This document shows, piece by piece, positions 55,563 to 63,738 of a stretch of DNA of 64,000 nucleotides. The stretch covers positions 1,054,001-1,118,000 of the forward strand of contig JAIQGG010000002.1 in NCBI GenBank assembly GCA_020072785.1, read 5' to 3'. This DNA is from Terriglobia bacterium. Lineage in GTDB: Bacteria > Acidobacteriota > Terriglobia > Acidiferrales > UBA7541. The translations under genes were made by a program, and so were the position numbers. Below the pieces are notes generated by a model, which saw only the letters and a program-made list of their open reading frames with translations, had not been told where the DNA came from and ran no database searches. How positions within the stretch are numbered: the stretch's first letter is position 1; the number at the start of each line of letters is the position of its first letter.

Positions 55563-58046
55563 ATGGCGACTGAACTGTTCTCGTCCGGCCATTCGGAACC
55601 GGTGCGGGTCGAACTAAAAAGCTACCACGAGACGATCCCCCTGGGATCGATTGCCATAGGTGTGGACAACATCCACCACGATGTGTTCCTGAGCCCGAAG
55701 TTCGTGCAAGCCTCCCGCGACTATCTCTACGACCTACTGCGCCAGAGCACGGCGGCGACGTACTTTCCGGGGATGGAGCTGCGCACGGTAAAGGCGCTGG
55801 ACACCTCGGCGTACCGCAAGCTGCTGACGGAGCTGCTGCAGAACGCGCTGACGCTGGCGAAACATCAGAAAAACATCGAGGTCGATTACCTGTTTCGGCT
55901 GGCGGTGCTGAAATTCCTGACGCAGGAGCTGAGTAACCAGTTCGGGAATCTGATCCTGGAAGGGAAGGAGCGCATCCGGCACCGCGGGGAGTATTTCGAA
56001 CGCAGCCATGAGGCGCACGTCATCAAGGCGCGGCTCTCCGAGCTGCAGGCGGCGAAGCGCGATGTGCTGCGGGGGATCGGGCAGCAGATTCAACAACTGC
56101 TCGCAGACGTCGAGGAGAACATCCTGGCGAAGGCGCGGCGGGCGTTGTTCGGGGACGAGTTTGCGGCGATCTACGAGATGCTGAAGAACCGCATCCTTTT
56201 TCTGGAGGGCGGGAAGGACGAAATATTTTTTCTGGAGCACTACGTGCTGCTGGGGAATTACGTGCGCGATCCGGACCGCTTCGAGGCCATGGATGCGCTG
56301 TTCCAGGAATTCATGAAGGAAACGGGATTGGAGATCACGCATGACCCGGCGTATGCGGAGGCCAGACAGGCGCACACGGCGCTGCTGGAGGCGGCGCAGC
56401 ACCTGGGCGGAGAGATCGCCCAGCTGGAAGAGCAGCGGGACACGCTGCAGAAGAAGCTGGAACGCGGGGACGGGCTGCTTTCGCGGTTCATGAGCAGTTC
56501 GGAACCGTCGGACATACGGGCTTCGCTGAACGACGTGGAGAAGCGGCTGAGCCATCAGACGGGGAAGCTCGATGAGCTGGGGCCGCAGATCGAAGCCGCC
56601 AAGCAGAAACTGGATTTCTTTCACAAGGAATACGCCGGGCGGATCGGCGACTACCTGAACGAGCCGGAGAACGCGCGGAGGATGTTCGACGCGGCGGAGG
56701 CGAAGGAAGGGGAGGCGCAGCAGCGGACGCGGCAGCTGAACCGGCTGATCGAGAGGCTGGAGCAGCGGGAAGTGCTGCTGCATATCCTGGCCAGTTATGC
56801 GATCCGGCCGATCCGGCACGAATACTGCCCGCCGGTGCACTTGCAGCAACTGCGCAAGGCGCTGGTGTCGAAGGAGGAGCTGCAGCGCGTGGAGCAGGTG
56901 CTGAAGCAGGTGCCGGCGCGGAAATTGTCGCTGAAGCCGCTGGAGGAGCTGGCGCGGCGGATCCGCAGGTATTCGCGGGAGGAGACGCAGCCGCTGGTGC
57001 TGAAGTTTGCCGTGGATTTTCTGCGCTTGCGGCGGGATCTGCGGGACGCCGAGCATCTGACGGCGTGCATGGAGCGCATCAGCCTGATCACGACGGAGCA
57101 GGTGCGCGAGCTCTCGCGGCTGAACAACCGGCTGTATGAGTGCGTGTTGCCGGAAGAGGCGCCGCCGAAGGACGACCGGGTCATCTCGCACGTGATCATC
57201 AAGACGGACGTGCGCGGATCGACCAAGATGACGCAGGACCTGCTGAGCCGGGGCTTGAATCCGGCTTCGCATTTCAGCATGCACCTGCACGAGCCGGTAA
57301 AGAAGATCATCGACCGGTATGGCGCGAAAAAGGTGTTCATCGAGGGCGACGCCATTATCCTGGCCATCTTCGAAACCGAGAGCAACCAGGCCTACCAGCG
57401 GGCGGTAGCCAAGGCGTGCGTGCTGGCGCGGCAGATCATCAACGTGTGCGGGAGCTATAACGGGCGCGCGGTTTCCGGCGATCTGCCAGCGCTGGAGCTG
57501 GGAGTGGGGATCGCATTTCAGGAGGACGCGCCAACGTACTGGACCGACGGAGACTCGCGGATCATGATTTCCAAGGCGCTGAATCTTTCCGACCGGTTGT
57601 CGGGATGCGCGAAGCTGGCGCGGCGGCTGCTGGGAGCACAGAAGTCACATTTCTCGCTGTACCAGTTTTTGTCGGTGGTCGAGGGCGCTTCGGCGGAAGA
57701 AACCGACGAGTTCCTGGTGCGCTACAACCTGAACGGGATCGAGCTGAACGAGGTGGGGTTCACGAAATTGTCGGAAGAGATCGCGCTGGAAATGATCGAG
57801 ACCAAACTGGACATGCCCTGGGGCCGGGACAACGTGACGCTGTACTATGGCGAAGTGCCCATGGGGGAGACCATCGAGCTGCTGGTGCTGCGCAAGGGCT
57901 TTGCGCGGGAACTGCTGCCGGACGGGCGGATTGGCAAGCCCACGACGCACACCTACTATGAGGTGTGCAACACGCCGGCGCTGTACGATCTGGTGGCGGC
58001 GCTGAGCCGGGCGCAGGCCGCAGTGATCGGGCCACCCCGCCGGTAA
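55563..58046 (+). CDS. Large coiled-coil protein with class III cyclase-like C-terminal domain
   Basis: An 827-residue cytoplasmic protein, no signal peptide. About residues 1-530 are mostly helical, with long coiled coils near 130-220, 265-320 and 345-400. The C-terminal third resembles a class III nucleotide cyclase. Metal aspartates are D549 (KTDVRGSTKMT) and D596 (EGDAII); the transition-state pair is N674 and R678 (ALNLSDRL). The base-reading pair is atypical: F592 and K671, where adenylyl cyclases have Lys and Asp/Thr. A further 150 residues of unknown fold follow. It could be an atypical cyclase or a degenerate regulatory domain. The stop is 17 bases before a tRNA-Sec gene. Confidence 0.7.
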   Translation: MATELFSSGHSEPVRVELKSYHETIPLGSIAIGVDNIHHDVFLSPKFVQASRDYLYDLLRQSTAATYFPGMELRTVKALDTSAYRKLLTELLQNALTLAKHQKNIEVDYLFRLAVLKFLTQELSNQFGNLILEGKERIRHRGEYFERSHEAHVIKARLSELQAAKRDVLRGIGQQIQQLLADVEENILAKARRALFGDEFAAIYEMLKNRILFLEGGKDEIFFLEHYVLLGNYVRDPDRFEAMDALFQEFMKETGLEITHDPAYAEARQAHTALLEAAQHLGGEIAQLEEQRDTLQKKLERGDGLLSRFMSSSEPSDIRASLNDVEKRLSHQTGKLDELGPQIEAAKQKLDFFHKEYAGRIGDYLNEPENARRMFDAAEAKEGEAQQRTRQLNRLIERLEQREVLLHILASYAIRPIRHEYCPPVHLQQLRKALVSKEELQRVEQVLKQVPARKLSLKPLEELARRIRRYSREETQPLVLKFAVDFLRLRRDLRDAEHLTACMERISLITTEQVRELSRLNNRLYECVLPEEAPPKDDRVISHVIIKTDVRGSTKMTQDLLSRGLNPASHFSMHLHEPVKKIIDRYGAKKVFIEGDAIILAIFETESNQAYQRAVAKACVLARQIINVCGSYNGRAVSGDLPALELGVGIAFQEDAPTYWTDGDSRIMISKALNLSDRLSGCAKLARRLLGAQKSHFSLYQFLSVVEGASAEETDEFLVRYNLNGIELNEVGFTKLSEEIALEMIETKLDMPWGRDNVTLYYGEVPMGETIELLVLRKGFARELLPDGRIGKPTTHTYYEVCNTPALYDLVAALSRAQAAVIGPPRR

Positions 58047-58063: not shown

Positions 58064-58162
58064 GGAGGCGAAAGGAGCCCGGTGGATCTCCGGGCCTTCA
58101 AAGCCTGCGATGCGGTCCTTCGCGGCCCGCCTGGTGGGTTCGACTCCCATACGCTTCCGCCA
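58064..58162 (+). tRNA. selC: tRNA-Sec (anticodon TCA), copy 1
   Basis: A 99-base selenocysteine tRNA with encoded CCA. The anticodon loop is CTTCAAA with TCA at 58098-58100. The acceptor stem GGAGGCG pairs with CGCTTCC with one G-T. The D arm, T arm (GTGGG/CCCAT around TTCGACT) and the long variable arm (about TGCGGTCC-TTCG-CGGCCCGC with one mismatch) fit the bacterial tRNA-Sec plan. The eighth acceptor pair is A-A in both copies. No selA, selB or selD is in the window. Confidence 0.92.
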
Positions 58163-58498
58163 TGGAATTGCGCCACGCGCTTTAGGCGAGGGATGTGACT
58201 AGATTCCCACTTATCCGTTTTTTAGGTTAACCCCCAGGGAGACGTTCTCTTTCTTCGGCTACGTCTCTTCAGAGAAGATGTTGCCCGCGTGAGTCTCCAG
58301 GCGAAGTTGCGGGTTTTCCGAAATAGCAGGAAATATAAGGACGTTTAGGACGCCCCGTAAGACATTGCTCTCAATTCTTCCAGGGCGTAACAGTCCATTT
58401 GAGGGCGGGGTCCTGCCACCGTCAGTCCATTCTTCTTGGTCCGGCGAAGACTACTCAAGCAAGACTGCCACATTCGTTTTGACGCAATCGGAAGGACG
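58163..58498. other. 336-base gap after the first tRNA-Sec gene
   Basis: No gene is supported. A T6 run at 58220-58225 follows the tRNA but has no clear stem before it. Short minus-strand open frames here (up to 75 codons) have no recognisable domain and no ribosome site. I see no integrase or transposase remnant that can be named. Confidence 0.4.
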
Positions 58499-61369
58499 CT
58501 AATTGGGCAACAGGCCGTAGACATCAAGCTCCCCCGGTGTGCTCGAGGTTCCGCTCCCCGTGTCGTTACCACGAGTCCCGATGTAGACCTTGCCGTTGGC
58601 GACGGTGGGGACTGTGAATTTTACGGCAAAGCCTGCGGTGTTTCCTGTTCCCTGCGTGCTATTCCACAACTCGGTGGCGAGATTGGTCGCATCATAGGCA
58701 TGAAGAACCGCGGGGCCGCAACCCGGTGACTGGGGCGTGCAGTATTGACTGTCATTGAGAGCCCAGGCGATCCCATTAGTGGAGCCGCTCGAGGAAACAG
58801 CCGGCGTTGTGCCGGGGAATCCATAACTGCTTGAGGATTGCGATGAGGCGGTAGTTGTAAATAGGCCTGTGGAGGGGTTGAAGGGGAAGGCTTTGAGGTG
58901 TCCGCCAACTCCCCCGATATACAACGTATTGTTCCAGAAAGCAGCCGTCGCAAATATGGAGTTGCTAATGCCGAAACGTTGCCGCGCGTTGCTATCCCCA
59001 AAGTGACCCATATTGTCTCGATTCAGAAGGTACAGAAAGCCATCCTTGCCGCCTCCAATGACCAGGTGCGCGACCGGTCCGGAAGTCTGATCGACAAGTA
59101 TCGCCGCTCCTCCGGATCCGAAATCGAGATCGTTTGAGTTGTCCGTGTTCTGATCCGAAGGGGTAAACCAGTCCGCGACGCTGAAACTGCTGGTCAGTTT
59201 TATGAAGGAATCGCCGTAGTCGTTATTCGGGGACGTCGTGCTGTTCGCGTCGAAGTTGCCATTTCCAGTAATAAAATACAAATTGTTGCTGGAATCCGCG
59301 GCGGGCGCGCCGCCTCCCATCCAGATCCCGCCGAAGCCAACATTGGGCGTGGCGTTGAAGACGCTTACTTGCGCCAGTGTGGTTGCGTTGTAGCCCATCA
59401 TCCAACCGTAGTACACCGATTTATCTTCATGCGAGGCCCAGGCAACATAAACAGTCCCATTGGTGAGCACCAAGCCTGGCCGCTGATTTTGGTTTCTGGG
59501 GTCAAACGTCACAGTCGTGCCGCCGGTATTCGTGCCCGGGTAGGTGGCGGAAATATTTACAGGTCCCGCAAGCTTCTCTGCACCCGAAGTTAAGTTGATC
59601 GCATGCAGCCGCTGGAAGAAGGTAAGGCTCGAGGCGATAACGGATTTGCAGACAACGTAAAGCGTATCTGTGTTGGGGTCGATGACGGGCGTGCCGGTAA
59701 TCCCCACTTCAGGTGTAATGTCGCCGAAACCCGACCCGACAAGATTCCCCGTCGAACCCGAGGGCACTGAAGTCTCGCCGGCGGCGCCACCATGGGCTGA
59801 ATCGATGAGACTCACATGCCACAGCGTTAGGCAGGGACTTGCGTCCGCGTCGAATGCGTACAAACTCCCGTGCTGTGTGGCTACGATGATCACGTTGTGC
59901 TTTTGGCCTCCAATCATCAGATTCGAGACCCAGAGAGGCTGCGCATAGATCGCCCCATCCGCCGCACAGGAGAAAAGCTTCCCGAAGGTGGAGGTGTTCA
60001 CCGTGGCGGTGGTAAGAGCGTATTCCTGGGTGTTGGTCCCGTCGCGGGAAAGATTGTTGTGATAGGTAGAGACGCCGGCAAGGTCGGTGACAGCAACGGT
60101 GGCCGATGCACTTTTCGTAACGTCGCTCACGCTGGTCGCAGTAACGGAGTATATGCCAGCCGTGGAAGGAGCCGTGAAAGTGACGGCAACTCCGGAGGCG
60201 CTCGATGTCGCAGAGAGAGAGCCGCCTGTGATGTTCCACGTGACACCTTGGTTGAGGCCGTCATTCGAAACCGTGGCAGTAAATGCCAGGCTCTGTGTAA
60301 TGGTCAGAGCGCCACGTTTCGGTGTAACGGAGACAACGATATTGCCGGTTGCGGCCAGGATGGTGATGGTGGCGGAGGCTGTGCGTGTTGTGTCGGCCAC
60401 GGAAGTGGCGGTCAGTGTGAGCGTCGCCGGAGAGGGCGCAGTTGCGGGGGCTGTGTAGGTGATGGCTACCCCGGATGCCGAGGAAGAGGCCGATAGCGTC
60501 CCGCAGGCAGTACCGCTACAGCCGGAGCCAGACAGCGTCCAGGTAACTCCCTTGTTCTGGGCATCGTTGGTGACGGTGGCGGTGAAGTTCTGCGGCTGCC
60601 CGGTCTGCACGCTGGCGGTCGTCGGCCCTACACTCACTGCAACGGGTGCGGTCACCGTGATCGTGGCCATAGAACTCCTGGTGTTGTCCGCCACCGAAGT
60701 CGCGGTCAGCGTTACCGTCGCGGGACTGGGCACCGCCGCAGGTGCGTTGTAGGTCACCGCGGTGCTGGTGATATTGGAGAGTGTCCCGCAAGTGGAGCCC
60801 GTGCAGCCGGAGCCGGAGAGCGTCCAGGTGACGCCTTTGTTCTGCGTGTCATTCTGCAGCGTAGCGCTGAAGCCTTGGGTTCCGATGCCGGCCTGCACGC
60901 TGGCGGTCGCCGGTGCCACACTCAGCGCAACGGGTGCGGTCACCGTGATCGTGGCCATAGAACTCCTGGTGTTGTCCGCCACCGAGGTCGCGGTCAGCGT
61001 TACCGTCGCGGGACTGGGCACCGCCGCGGGTGCGTTGTAGGTCACCGCGGTGCTGGTGACATTGGAGAGTGTCCCGCAAGTGGAGCCCGTGCAGCCGGAG
61101 CCGGAGAGCGTCCAGGTGACGCCTTTGTTCTGCGTGTCATTCTGCAGCGTAGCGCTGAAGCCTTGGGTTCCGATGCCGGCCTGCACGCTCACTGCTGTGG
61201 GCGATACGGAAACATTCACCAATTGCGGCTGCAGAGTCGCGGTCGGACCACCCGCGCACCCGGAGAGCGCGCAAGACAGAATTAACCCCAGGAATGCTGG
61301 ACCAGGCAAGCGACTCTTGGCTTGAGCTCCACGGGAACTCATCAAAAGATTTTTCTCCCAAGTTCGCAT
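58499..61369 (-). CDS. Lipoprotein with Ig-like repeats and beta-propeller-like domain
   Basis: A 956-residue putative outer-membrane lipoprotein: lipobox in LILSCALSGCAGG (Cys near residue 38), then four Ig-like/BACON-type repeats of about 96 residues (about 50-420; TATSVADNTRSSMATITV and similar). A C-terminal region (about 440-956) has repeated beta-propeller or PQQ-like blades (HNVIIVATQHGSLYAFDAD, GTPVIDPNTDTLYVVCK, LVIGGGKDGFLYLLNRDN). Repeats one and two are nearly identical. The start could also be the ATG at 61342. It lies alone, antisense to the flanking tRNA-Sec genes. Adhesion or extracellular binding is likely by family; not shown. Confidence 0.8.
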   Translation of the reverse strand: MRTWEKNLLMSSRGAQAKSRLPGPAFLGLILSCALSGCAGGPTATLQPQLVNVSVSPTAVSVQAGIGTQGFSATLQNDTQNKGVTWTLSGSGCTGSTCGTLSNVTSTAVTYNAPAAVPSPATVTLTATSVADNTRSSMATITVTAPVALSVAPATASVQAGIGTQGFSATLQNDTQNKGVTWTLSGSGCTGSTCGTLSNITSTAVTYNAPAAVPSPATVTLTATSVADNTRSSMATITVTAPVAVSVGPTTASVQTGQPQNFTATVTNDAQNKGVTWTLSGSGCSGTACGTLSASSSASGVAITYTAPATAPSPATLTLTATSVADTTRTASATITILAATGNIVVSVTPKRGALTITQSLAFTATVSNDGLNQGVTWNITGGSLSATSSASGVAVTFTAPSTAGIYSVTATSVSDVTKSASATVAVTDLAGVSTYHNNLSRDGTNTQEYALTTATVNTSTFGKLFSCAADGAIYAQPLWVSNLMIGGQKHNVIIVATQHGSLYAFDADASPCLTLWHVSLIDSAHGGAAGETSVPSGSTGNLVGSGFGDITPEVGITGTPVIDPNTDTLYVVCKSVIASSLTFFQRLHAINLTSGAEKLAGPVNISATYPGTNTGGTTVTFDPRNQNQRPGLVLTNGTVYVAWASHEDKSVYYGWMMGYNATTLAQVSVFNATPNVGFGGIWMGGGAPAADSSNNLYFITGNGNFDANSTTSPNNDYGDSFIKLTSSFSVADWFTPSDQNTDNSNDLDFGSGGAAILVDQTSGPVAHLVIGGGKDGFLYLLNRDNMGHFGDSNARQRFGISNSIFATAAFWNNTLYIGGVGGHLKAFPFNPSTGLFTTTASSQSSSSYGFPGTTPAVSSSGSTNGIAWALNDSQYCTPQSPGCGPAVLHAYDATNLATELWNSTQGTGNTAGFAVKFTVPTVANGKVYIGTRGNDTGSGTSSTPGELDVYGLLPN
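60761..61190 (-). repeat. Two 288-base tandem repeats within the lipoprotein gene
   Basis: A 96-codon unit is repeated with a period of exactly 288 bases (for example ggtgctggtg at 60761 and 61049). The two copies are near-identical at DNA level, whereas the next units are clearly diverged. This points to recent duplication or gene conversion. Confidence 0.75.
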
Positions 61370-61712: not shown

Positions 61713-61811
61713 GGAGGCGAAAGGGGTCCGGTGACTCTCCCGGCCTTCAAAGCCGGCGATTCGGTCCTTCGCGGCCCGAATGGTGGGTTCGACTCCCACA
61801 CGTCTCCGCCA
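61713..61811 (+). tRNA. selC: tRNA-Sec (anticodon TCA), copy 2
   Basis: A second 99-base tRNA-Sec with TCA at 61747-61749 and encoded CCA. The anticodon stem CCGGC/GCCGG is fully paired (copy 1 has a G-T), the T stem GTGGG/CCCAC is perfect, and the acceptor keeps one G-T and the A-A pair. In the variable arm, TTCGG...CCGAA replaces TGCGG...CCCGC, so both sides changed together and pairing is kept. This suggests it is still under selection. Confidence 0.9.
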
Positions 61812-62139
61812 AAGTAGAAATCGGCTGGTTGTCGCAAATCACTTGGGCCGTGTGACGATGGTCACATACAGTCTGTTAATACTTCAGGACAATGCACTTC
61901 TTTTACTAGGCGAGGTGTGGACGCACAAGGTTCGGAAGGCTGGTTCCCATGCCCGCGAAGCATCCCGGCTCGTTAGAGACCGGAGCCAGCGTGCGCCCGA
62001 TCGCCAGTCTGGCCGGGCCGCAGCACTTTTCTGAAGCCGTATTCGAGGACAAACGCATCCCGCGAGATGGTTTTGCCGCCAGGGAGAGCGCAGGCGCGGT
62101 GATCTACCGGCGGACAGTAAGCGCAAAGAGAGGTGCAAG
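61812..62139. other. 328-base gap before the CoA ligase gene
   Basis: Holds the CRP/FNR-type operator at 61851 and possible -10 hexamers (TAATAC at 61877, TTTACT at 61902). A 66-codon frame at 61949-62149 runs into the ligase start and has no recognisable domain, so I do not call it a gene. Confidence 0.4.
61851..61866 (+). promoter_or_regulatory. CRP/FNR-type operator upstream of the CoA ligase
   Basis: TGTGACGATGGTCACA is a perfect TGTGA-N6-TCACA palindrome, 40 bases after the second tRNA-Sec and 274 bases before the ligase start. A TTTACT hexamer at 61902-61907 would put the operator centre near -55. It is the third site of this type in the window. Confidence 0.55.
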
Positions 62140-63738
62140 GTGGCAGTGACCGTGGAAGTCAGCGCCGAGGGTATCCCGCGGCTGCGCTTTCCCGAGCCGT
62201 TCAATGCCGCCGAGCACTTCGTGGACCGTCATCTTGCGGAAGGACGCGGCAATAAAATTGCGGTGCGCACACTCGACCGGGAAGTGAGCTACAGCGAGCT
62301 GGTGGAGAGCGTCAACCGCTTCGGCAACACCCTTGCGGACCTGGGGATGAAGCGCGGGGAGCGGGTCCTGATGGTGGTCAATGATTGTCCCGAATTCTTT
62401 TTCCTTTTCTGGGGCGCCCTGAAGATCGGCGTGATTCCCGTGCCGCTGAACGCGTTACTCCGAGCCAACGAATTTGCGTTCATCATCCGGGATTCGCAGT
62501 GCGCCGGTCTGGTGTACTCGTCCGAGTTCGCGGAGGAGGTGGAAGCCGCCCTGGAAGCCTCTTCGTGGCGGCCCCGCGTCGTGCTGCGCCTGAAGGGTAG
62601 CGCGGACGCGCTGACGGAGCGGGCACGGAACGCTTCGCCGGAGCTCCAGGCAGTTCCCACAAGCGCCGACGACGATGGTTACTGGCTCTATTCCTCGGGT
62701 ACCACCGGACGGCCGAAAGGGGTGGTCCACACCCACGGGGACCTCGCCGTCTGCAGTCAGTTGTACACCGTGGGAGTGCTCGGCGCCGAAGAGAGCGATG
62801 TCTTTTTTTGCGTGCCGCGGCTGTTCTTTTCGTATGGCCTGGGGGCGGCCATGTGCGCTCCCTTGTGGGTCGGCGGCACGACCATCCTCGACGAGCGGCG
62901 GCAGACGCCGGAGACGGTGATGGAGGTGTTTCGGCGCTACTCGCCCACGCTGTTCGCCGCCGTGCCCACGTTCTTCGCCAGGATTCTGGCTGCCAAGGTG
63001 CTGACAAGGGCTGCCGTTCCGCGGCTGCGCCGGTGCATGTCCGCTGCCGAGCCACTGCCCCCTGAATTGCATCGCCTGTGGCTGGAAGTGACCGGGGTAC
63101 CGATCATGGAGGGCATCGGCTCGACCGAGGTGGGGCACATTTACATCTCCAACCGCTGCGACGATATCCGGCCGGGCACGTCCGGCAAGCCGGTCCCCGG
63201 CTACCAGGTTCGCATCGTGGACGATGCCGGGAACGATGTCGGCGAAGAGATGCCCGGGCGCCTGCTGGTCAAGGCCCAGTCGGTGACGCGGCGCTACTGG
63301 AACGAACCGGAGAGGACAGCCAAGGCCATCGTGAACGGCTGGTTTGATACCGGGGACACCTTCCGCCGGGACAAGGAAGGCTACTATGTCTTCTGCGGAC
63401 GGGGCGACGATATGCTCAAGATCAGCGGCAGGTGGATCTCGCCGTTCGAAATCGAATCCGCCCTTGTGGAGCATCCCAAGGTGCTCGAAGCGGCGGTGGT
63501 CGGCCGGACCGACGAAAACGGCCTGATGAAGACCGAGGCCTGGGTAGTGCTGAAAGACCCCGCGCAGGCTTGCGAGCTGACCGCCCAGGAGGTCCGGGTG
63601 TTCTGCAAGGGCAAGCTTTCCCCTTACAAGTCTCCCGCATGGATTCATTTCGTGGAGCATTTGCCGAAGACGGCAACCGGAAAGATCCAGCGGTATAAGC
63701 TGCGCGCCACCCAGCAAGAAGAGGTGGGACACGCGTGA
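62140..63738 (+). CDS. Benzoate-CoA ligase-like AMP-forming CoA ligase
   Basis: A 532-residue adenylate-forming ligase that activates a carboxylic acid as its CoA thioester. Motifs: the AMP-binding loop YSSGTTGRPKGVVHTHG (about residue 183), EGIGSTEVGHIYIS, YRFDTGD-type WFDTGDTFR, RGDDMLKISGRWISP and the C-terminal lysine loop KTATGKIQR. The pattern is closest to benzoate/4-hydroxybenzoate-CoA ligases. The GTG at 62140 follows AGAGAGG. Its stop overlaps the next start (GTGA), so it is coupled to an enoyl-CoA hydratase gene. Confidence 0.85.
   Translation: MAVTVEVSAEGIPRLRFPEPFNAAEHFVDRHLAEGRGNKIAVRTLDREVSYSELVESVNRFGNTLADLGMKRGERVLMVVNDCPEFFFLFWGALKIGVIPVPLNALLRANEFAFIIRDSQCAGLVYSSEFAEEVEAALEASSWRPRVVLRLKGSADALTERARNASPELQAVPTSADDDGYWLYSSGTTGRPKGVVHTHGDLAVCSQLYTVGVLGAEESDVFFCVPRLFFSYGLGAAMCAPLWVGGTTILDERRQTPETVMEVFRRYSPTLFAAVPTFFARILAAKVLTRAAVPRLRRCMSAAEPLPPELHRLWLEVTGVPIMEGIGSTEVGHIYISNRCDDIRPGTSGKPVPGYQVRIVDDAGNDVGEEMPGRLLVKAQSVTRRYWNEPERTAKAIVNGWFDTGDTFRRDKEGYYVFCGRGDDMLKISGRWISPFEIESALVEHPKVLEAAVVGRTDENGLMKTEAWVVLKDPAQACELTAQEVRVFCKGKLSPYKSPAWIHFVEHLPKTATGKIQRYKLRATQQEEVGHA

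Follow-up and report, generated by a model that had tools for sequence, protein, structure and literature searches.

A divergent family of putative class III nucleotidyl cyclases with an exchanged base pocket, encoded near tRNA-Sec genes in acidobacteria

The window analyzed here, a stretch of 64,000 nucleotides from a Terriglobia bacterium with a genome of 3.73 Mb, contains an open reading frame for a protein of 827 amino acids, and this locus raises the question of whether its product is a nucleotidyl cyclase and, if so, which base it would recognize and what it would signal. The initial annotation proposed a large helical protein with a noncanonical class III cyclase domain, and we re-derived its coordinates and residue numbering (Table 1). 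Conventional sequence searches give little guidance. Nothing passed the cut-off when the protein was searched against Pfam, NCBIfam, and PDB sequences, and the adenylyl/guanylyl cyclase model PF00211 matched none of 19 family members at an E value of 0.1. The top sequence-profile match to a solved cyclase, obtained with HMMER, was non-significant (E 0.27), and a search of PDB sequences with the full family profile returned coiled-coil matches.

Table 1. Features of the cyclase locus, in window coordinates
Feature	Coordinates	Strand	Evidence
Whole gene, divergent class III cyclase family protein, 827 aa	55563..58046	+	Open frame; homologues in 40/61 relatives
Helical N-terminal region, residues 1-530, no known family	55563..57152	+	AlphaFold2 secondary structure; no family above cut-off
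Long helical hairpin (coiled coil), residues 262-365	56346..56657	+	AlphaFold2 helices 262-302 and 315-365
Predicted class III nucleotidyl cyclase domain with insertions, residues 536-808	57168..57986	+	Foldseek, VIA-align, hhalign
K547 (pocket, D1-2) and D549 (first metal Asp)	57201..57209	+	25/25 rows
F592 and E594 (pocket), D596 (second metal Asp)	57336..57350	+	25/25 rows
I667, second base-recognition position (N674 minus 7)	57561..57563	+	25/25 rows; register from hhalign
N674 and R678, transition-state pair	57582..57596	+	25/25 rows
tRNA-Sec gene, first copy, starts 17 bases past the stop codon of the cyclase gene	58064..58162	+	ARAGORN; Rfam 60.9 bits
tRNA-Sec gene, second copy	61713..61811	+	ARAGORN; Rfam 66.2 bits

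The evidence for a cyclase domain comes from structure models and from a profile comparison that is independent of them. AlphaFold2 modeled the full-length protein with a mean pLDDT of 64 and a pTM of 0.41, and residues 533-827 with values of 68 and 0.73; model confidence is modest and is lowest around the loop that carries N674 and R678. With either of the two models, all 50 Foldseek matches listed were class III cyclases, the best E value being 1.3e-5 with one model and 1.1e-7 with the other, and the best VIA-align match reached a Z score of 12.3 over 176 residues (rmsd 3.9); one VIA-align match was an unrelated helical one. In addition, a single hhalign comparison between a profile of 25 family rows (the window protein plus 24 homologues chosen for diversity, of which L084 is incomplete) and 19 ordinary class III cyclases gave a probability of 90.7% and an E value of 1.3e-6, and it aligned both aspartates as well as the Asn/Arg pair. 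Thus, the two models and the profile-profile comparison agree on the domain that had been proposed, and by its predicted fold and catalytic residues, the protein is a member of the class III cyclase superfamily.

The same matches bear on the architecture of the protein. Those to class III structures cover positions 1-276 of the 533-827 model, or approximately residues 533-808 of the protein, and since the matched range runs this far, the C-terminal part belongs to the cyclase fold. What had been described as a 150-residue C-terminal addition therefore lies mostly inside that fold, and a separate C-terminal domain was rejected. The description of the first 530 or so residues as helical and coiled-coil was confirmed, as they are predicted to be mostly helical and to include a long helical hairpin; this region is presumably a sensor or dimerization part. 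The hairpin corresponds to a gap in all five homologues from family f11 (rows L085-L089 of the family alignment), and it would thus be dispensable for whatever function the family shares. Directly before the cyclase domain, AlphaFold2 places a helix at residues 511-527, and in other class III enzymes, signaling helices likewise precede the catalytic domain.

The homologues also allowed us to assess the catalytic residues. D549, D596, N674, and R678 do occur in the order typical of class III enzymes, as first reported, and all four are kept in 25 of 25 rows, as are C619, C682, C802, and R777. The residues expected to surround the base are equally constant, with K547, F592, E594, and I667 found in every row at two positions before the first aspartate (D1-2), four and two before the second (D2-4 and D2-2), and seven before the asparagine (N-7), respectively. 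At these positions, the ordinary cyclases have F (19/19), K (19/19), I, L, or M (14, 3, and 2), and T, D, or S (17, 1, and 1); this set consists of the 19 of 30 acidobacterial loci that passed a motif filter (first Asp motif plus N.A.R), which predetermines D1, N, R, and partly the F at D1-2 but leaves the K at D2-4 and the T at N-7 free. Relative to ordinary cyclases, Lys and Phe are exchanged between D1-2 and D2-4.

Of the two base-recognition residues named initially, only F592 could be retained, as hhalign aligns it with the canonical Lys position; a weaker, non-significant HMMER alignment opens a one-residue gap at F592 and would offer V591 as an alternative. K671 was rejected in favor of I667, given that it lies at N-3 while the canonical Asp/Thr lies at N-7, and that it is also variable (K in 13 rows, R in 6, and P, G, A, D, S, and E once each). 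In guanylyl cyclases, the base-recognition residues are Glu and Cys, and neither these nor the adenylyl-type Lys and Asp/Thr are present in the family, in which F592 and I667 occupy the corresponding positions in 25 of 25 rows. A noncanonical pocket is thus supported by the alignments, more strongly than first claimed given the four invariant changed positions, and, as far as aligned residues can indicate, it sets the protein apart from the ordinary adenylyl and guanylyl cyclases.

With the base-specifying residues of known cyclases missing and a large helical partner region present, one could suspect a regulatory pseudo-cyclase, that is, a class III dimer that binds a nucleotide without cyclizing it, as the initial annotation had allowed. 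However, a dead enzyme would not need both metal aspartates and the Asn/Arg pair, and their presence in 25 of 25 rows makes an active enzyme likelier, so we consider a pseudo-cyclase unlikely. Judging from this conservation, the enzyme is most likely active, and our preferred reading, which we regard as probable, is that of an active, divergent class III nucleotidyl cyclase, in which fold, residue conservation, distribution, and gene neighborhood are computed, and catalysis, dimer formation, and regulation are what we infer. In such an enzyme, two protomers would form a head-to-tail pair. One of them would bind two metal ions through D549 and D596, and its partner would use N674 and R678 to stabilize the transition state in which a nucleoside triphosphate is cyclized to a 3′,5′-cyclic monophosphate and pyrophosphate is released. 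The base would be read by the pocket with exchanged K547 and F592, to which E594 and I667 are added. Given that this pocket is rebuilt, the substrate cannot be read from the known rules: ATP might be bound in some other way, or another base might be used, and an unexpected cyclic nucleotide is a possible product. The long helical N-terminus would probably control dimerization in response to some signal.

Comparison with known systems helps to delimit what is different here. Class III adenylyl and guanylyl cyclases such as CyaC (1wc0) and Cya2 (2w01) have in common with this family the fold, the two metal aspartates, and the Asn/Arg residues. In contrast, the CyaC/Cya2-type pocket reads F/K/(I, L, or M)/T where this family has K547/F592/E594/I667, and the family further differs from them in its domain insertions, in a helical N-terminus that belongs to no known family, and in escaping detection by PF00211. 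The PycC enzymes of Pycsar systems, pyrimidine cyclases that make cCMP or cUMP, are also instructive, since according to excerpts of PMC11224242, their base is set at D1-2, D2-4, and D2-2, the same offsets as those of K547, F592, and E594. For instance, EaPycC binds metal through D102 and D146 and owes its specificity to F100, R142, and Q144, and AnPycC has F60 and K104 with D62 and D106, and also F109 (excerpts of PMC11224242). The PycC residues at these offsets differ from those of the family described here, and although the fold comparison also retrieved EaPycC (8jsf; Z 10.9), this match is no closer than those to other class III enzymes. Moreover, no PycTM- or PycTIR-like effector adjoins the gene, whose neighbors are TsaE and tRNA-Sec, and the protein has no PADLOC Pycsar match. 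In Ma1120 from Mycobacterium avium, swaps at K101 and D157 shifted the base preference, according to excerpts of PMC4215837, and this enzyme keeps K and D at the base positions, whereas the family has F and I.

A narrower form of the active-cyclase reading is that of an ordinary adenylyl cyclase whose pocket residues have traded places, in which K547 would contact adenine, F592 would act as the usual Phe, and cAMP would be made for CRP-type proteins. The presence of Lys and Phe at exchanged positions, each of them invariant, would fit such a swap, as would a genome with five cNMP_binding matches and no PF00211 match. Nevertheless, a simple swap leaves E594 and I667 unexplained, and 28 of the 40 relatives that carry the gene (see below) also have ordinary class III cyclases. 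The regulatory side does not help either. Instead of the three CRP-type sites that had been taken to make a cyclic-nucleotide circuit plausible, the window has two exact TGTGA-N6-TCACA sites (21451 and 61851) and two with one mismatch (28460 and 58194), and with up to two mismatches, 13 sites were found where 12.7 were expected, so there is no enrichment. A cyclic-nucleotide circuit that includes the cyclase gene is possible, but these sites lend it no support, and we hold the adenylyl cyclase proposal to be tentative and somewhat improbable.

The gene looks to be vertically kept in one class, with a patchy distribution within it. We found homologues in 40 of 61 relatives, mostly acidobacterial assemblies and some of them Candidatus Acidiferrum, and in 6 of 297 genomes from across the phylum, the genome of the window included; a profile search of the same 297 genomes gave 8, two of them weak. 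No match was found in the plasmid records searched, and none of 50 stretches from viral contigs could be confirmed as a homologue. Replacement of ordinary class III cyclases by the family was considered and rejected because both kinds coexist in the 28 carriers mentioned above, the other 12 having no PF00211 match. Apparent internal TGA codons in the homologues of two genomes (G039 and G043) were read as terminal stops, the frames being full length up to there, and the homologue in G030 is split into two pieces. Of the two weak matches, L101 (G279) covers profile positions 529-673 with an E value of 2.9e-4 in a 918-aa frame from outside the class and may be a distant relative or an ordinary cyclase, and the other, in G107, has an E value of 5.1e-4. 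One contig titled Betaproteobacteria (L057) encodes a homologue with 69% identity in the acidobacterial gene order, and the record is thus probably mislabeled.

A signal to which such a cyclase might answer is suggested by its neighbors. In 35 of the 40 carriers, tRNA-Sec is encoded no more than 2 kb downstream of the cyclase gene, and in 30 of them no more than 500 bases; among the remainder, it lies 16.6 kb away in one and on another contig in four. This linkage spans four families (f1-f4), and tRNA-Sec is present in all 45 carrier genomes of the relative and phylum sets combined, taking as present a match above 57 bits or, where bits were unlisted, an E value below 1e-12. The converse fails, as many genomes in the wider phylum have tRNA-Sec without the cyclase gene. 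In f11, the cyclase gene is not near tRNA-Sec, and yet tRNA-Sec occurs in five of five carriers compared with 2 of 26 non-carriers (Fisher 1.2e-4), or 3 of 26 (Fisher 3.3e-4) if the ambiguous match in G197 (E 4.1e-11) is counted; weaker matches were taken as other long-arm tRNAs, and as the genomes are not independent, this association is a lead and not proof.

A second element of the neighborhood is a gene for a ResA/TlpA-like redoxin with a CPxC motif, the frame of which closes with Gly-TGA, a short tail (for example GSKN or SSKN), and a stop codon. The Gly-TGA and tail were present in 7 of 7 loci examined and in all 14 loci that a pattern search retrieved, and 29 distinct sequences, partly overlapping these counts, passed the filter for the pattern (redoxin loci: L122, L078, L080, L082, L085-L088, and L108-L121). 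Predicted RNA folds contain short hairpins after the TGA that are candidate bacterial SECIS elements, and the protein looks like a selenoprotein with selenocysteine near its C-terminus. No NCBIfam model matched it over the cut-off, and its motif does not appear in the selenoprotein table of PMC13188914, in parts 1 and 2 of 3. The redoxin gene is less than 0.6 kb from the cyclase gene in four f3 genomes, 1.3 kb away in f4, and 0.4 to 6.6 kb away in the five f11 genomes, while in the genome of the window, it is approximately 10 kb away, with its TGA near window coordinate 68,470 (L122), outside the window. In most f1 genomes, the two genes are on different contigs. The redoxin also occurs without the cyclase (G058), which counts against a functional selenium link.

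As a pattern of gene neighborhood and co-occurrence, the selenium link is real; as a function, drawn from genomics only, it is unproven. The neighborhood could be functionally meaningless and reflect shared descent of a stable gene order. Upstream of the cyclase gene are genes for a SpoIIE-type phosphatase, an SDR protein, an NnrE/D-type protein, and TsaE, and the order NnrE/D, TsaE, cyclase, often with SDR and phosphatase, is also kept in most near relatives, one genus supplies most of the carriers, and tRNA-Sec lies elsewhere in f11, all of which would be expected from descent. However, L082, with 34% identity and the TsaE order lost, still has tRNA-Sec adjoining the cyclase gene, and the unlinked f11 carriers combine the tRNA-Sec excess with a redoxin kept nearby. 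To us, the arguments for and against shared descent are evenly balanced.

The neighbors have also led us to consider a class III-like enzyme that catalyzes a different phosphoryl transfer, one connected with selenium or tRNA metabolism instead of signaling. Related palm-type folds hold other chemistries, and the absence of an adjoining receptor gene, together with the proximity of tRNA-Sec and TsaE, speaks for such an enzyme and counts against our preferred explanation. Nevertheless, the Asn/Arg pair that characterizes cyclases is kept in every row and, apart from the unrelated helical one, the structure matches listed are all class III cyclases, so we regard another chemistry as highly improbable. 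Returning to the active cyclase, the tRNA-Sec and predicted selenocysteine-containing redoxin would suggest that its signal concerns the redox or selenium state. In the fullest version, this would be a new class III branch whose pocket, with Lys and Phe exchanged, yields an unusual cyclic nucleotide, and which reports on redox or selenium state in concert with this redoxin in selenocysteine-using acidobacteria; this is a speculative proposal that we think quite unlikely to hold as a whole.

The pocket-to-base rules for class III cyclases come from few enzymes, and a family in which four pocket positions have changed together and become fixed while the catalytic set is kept offers a clean test of them. 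Furthermore, given that Pfam is blind to the domain, genome surveys overlook cyclases of this kind. A selenium link, were it functional, would tie cyclic-nucleotide signaling to the use of selenocysteine; among the matches listed in literature searches on class III cyclases with selenocysteine and tRNA, and on Acidobacteria with cAMP, there was no report of this protein or of such a tie.

Finally, the window holds two copies of tRNA-Sec, and the 3.5-kb stretch between them contains one FN3-type ORF (58499-61369, minus strand). In the near relative L031, tRNA-Sec is single and the 3.5-kb stretch is missing, which suggests that the stretch was inserted and the tRNA region duplicated along with it, and in an alignment, the second copy is closer than the first to the single copy of L031. 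The first copy is followed by the one-mismatch CRP-type site at 58194, and the exact site at 61851-61866 lies between the second copy and an AMP-ligase ORF at 62140, a site that L031 keeps likewise.
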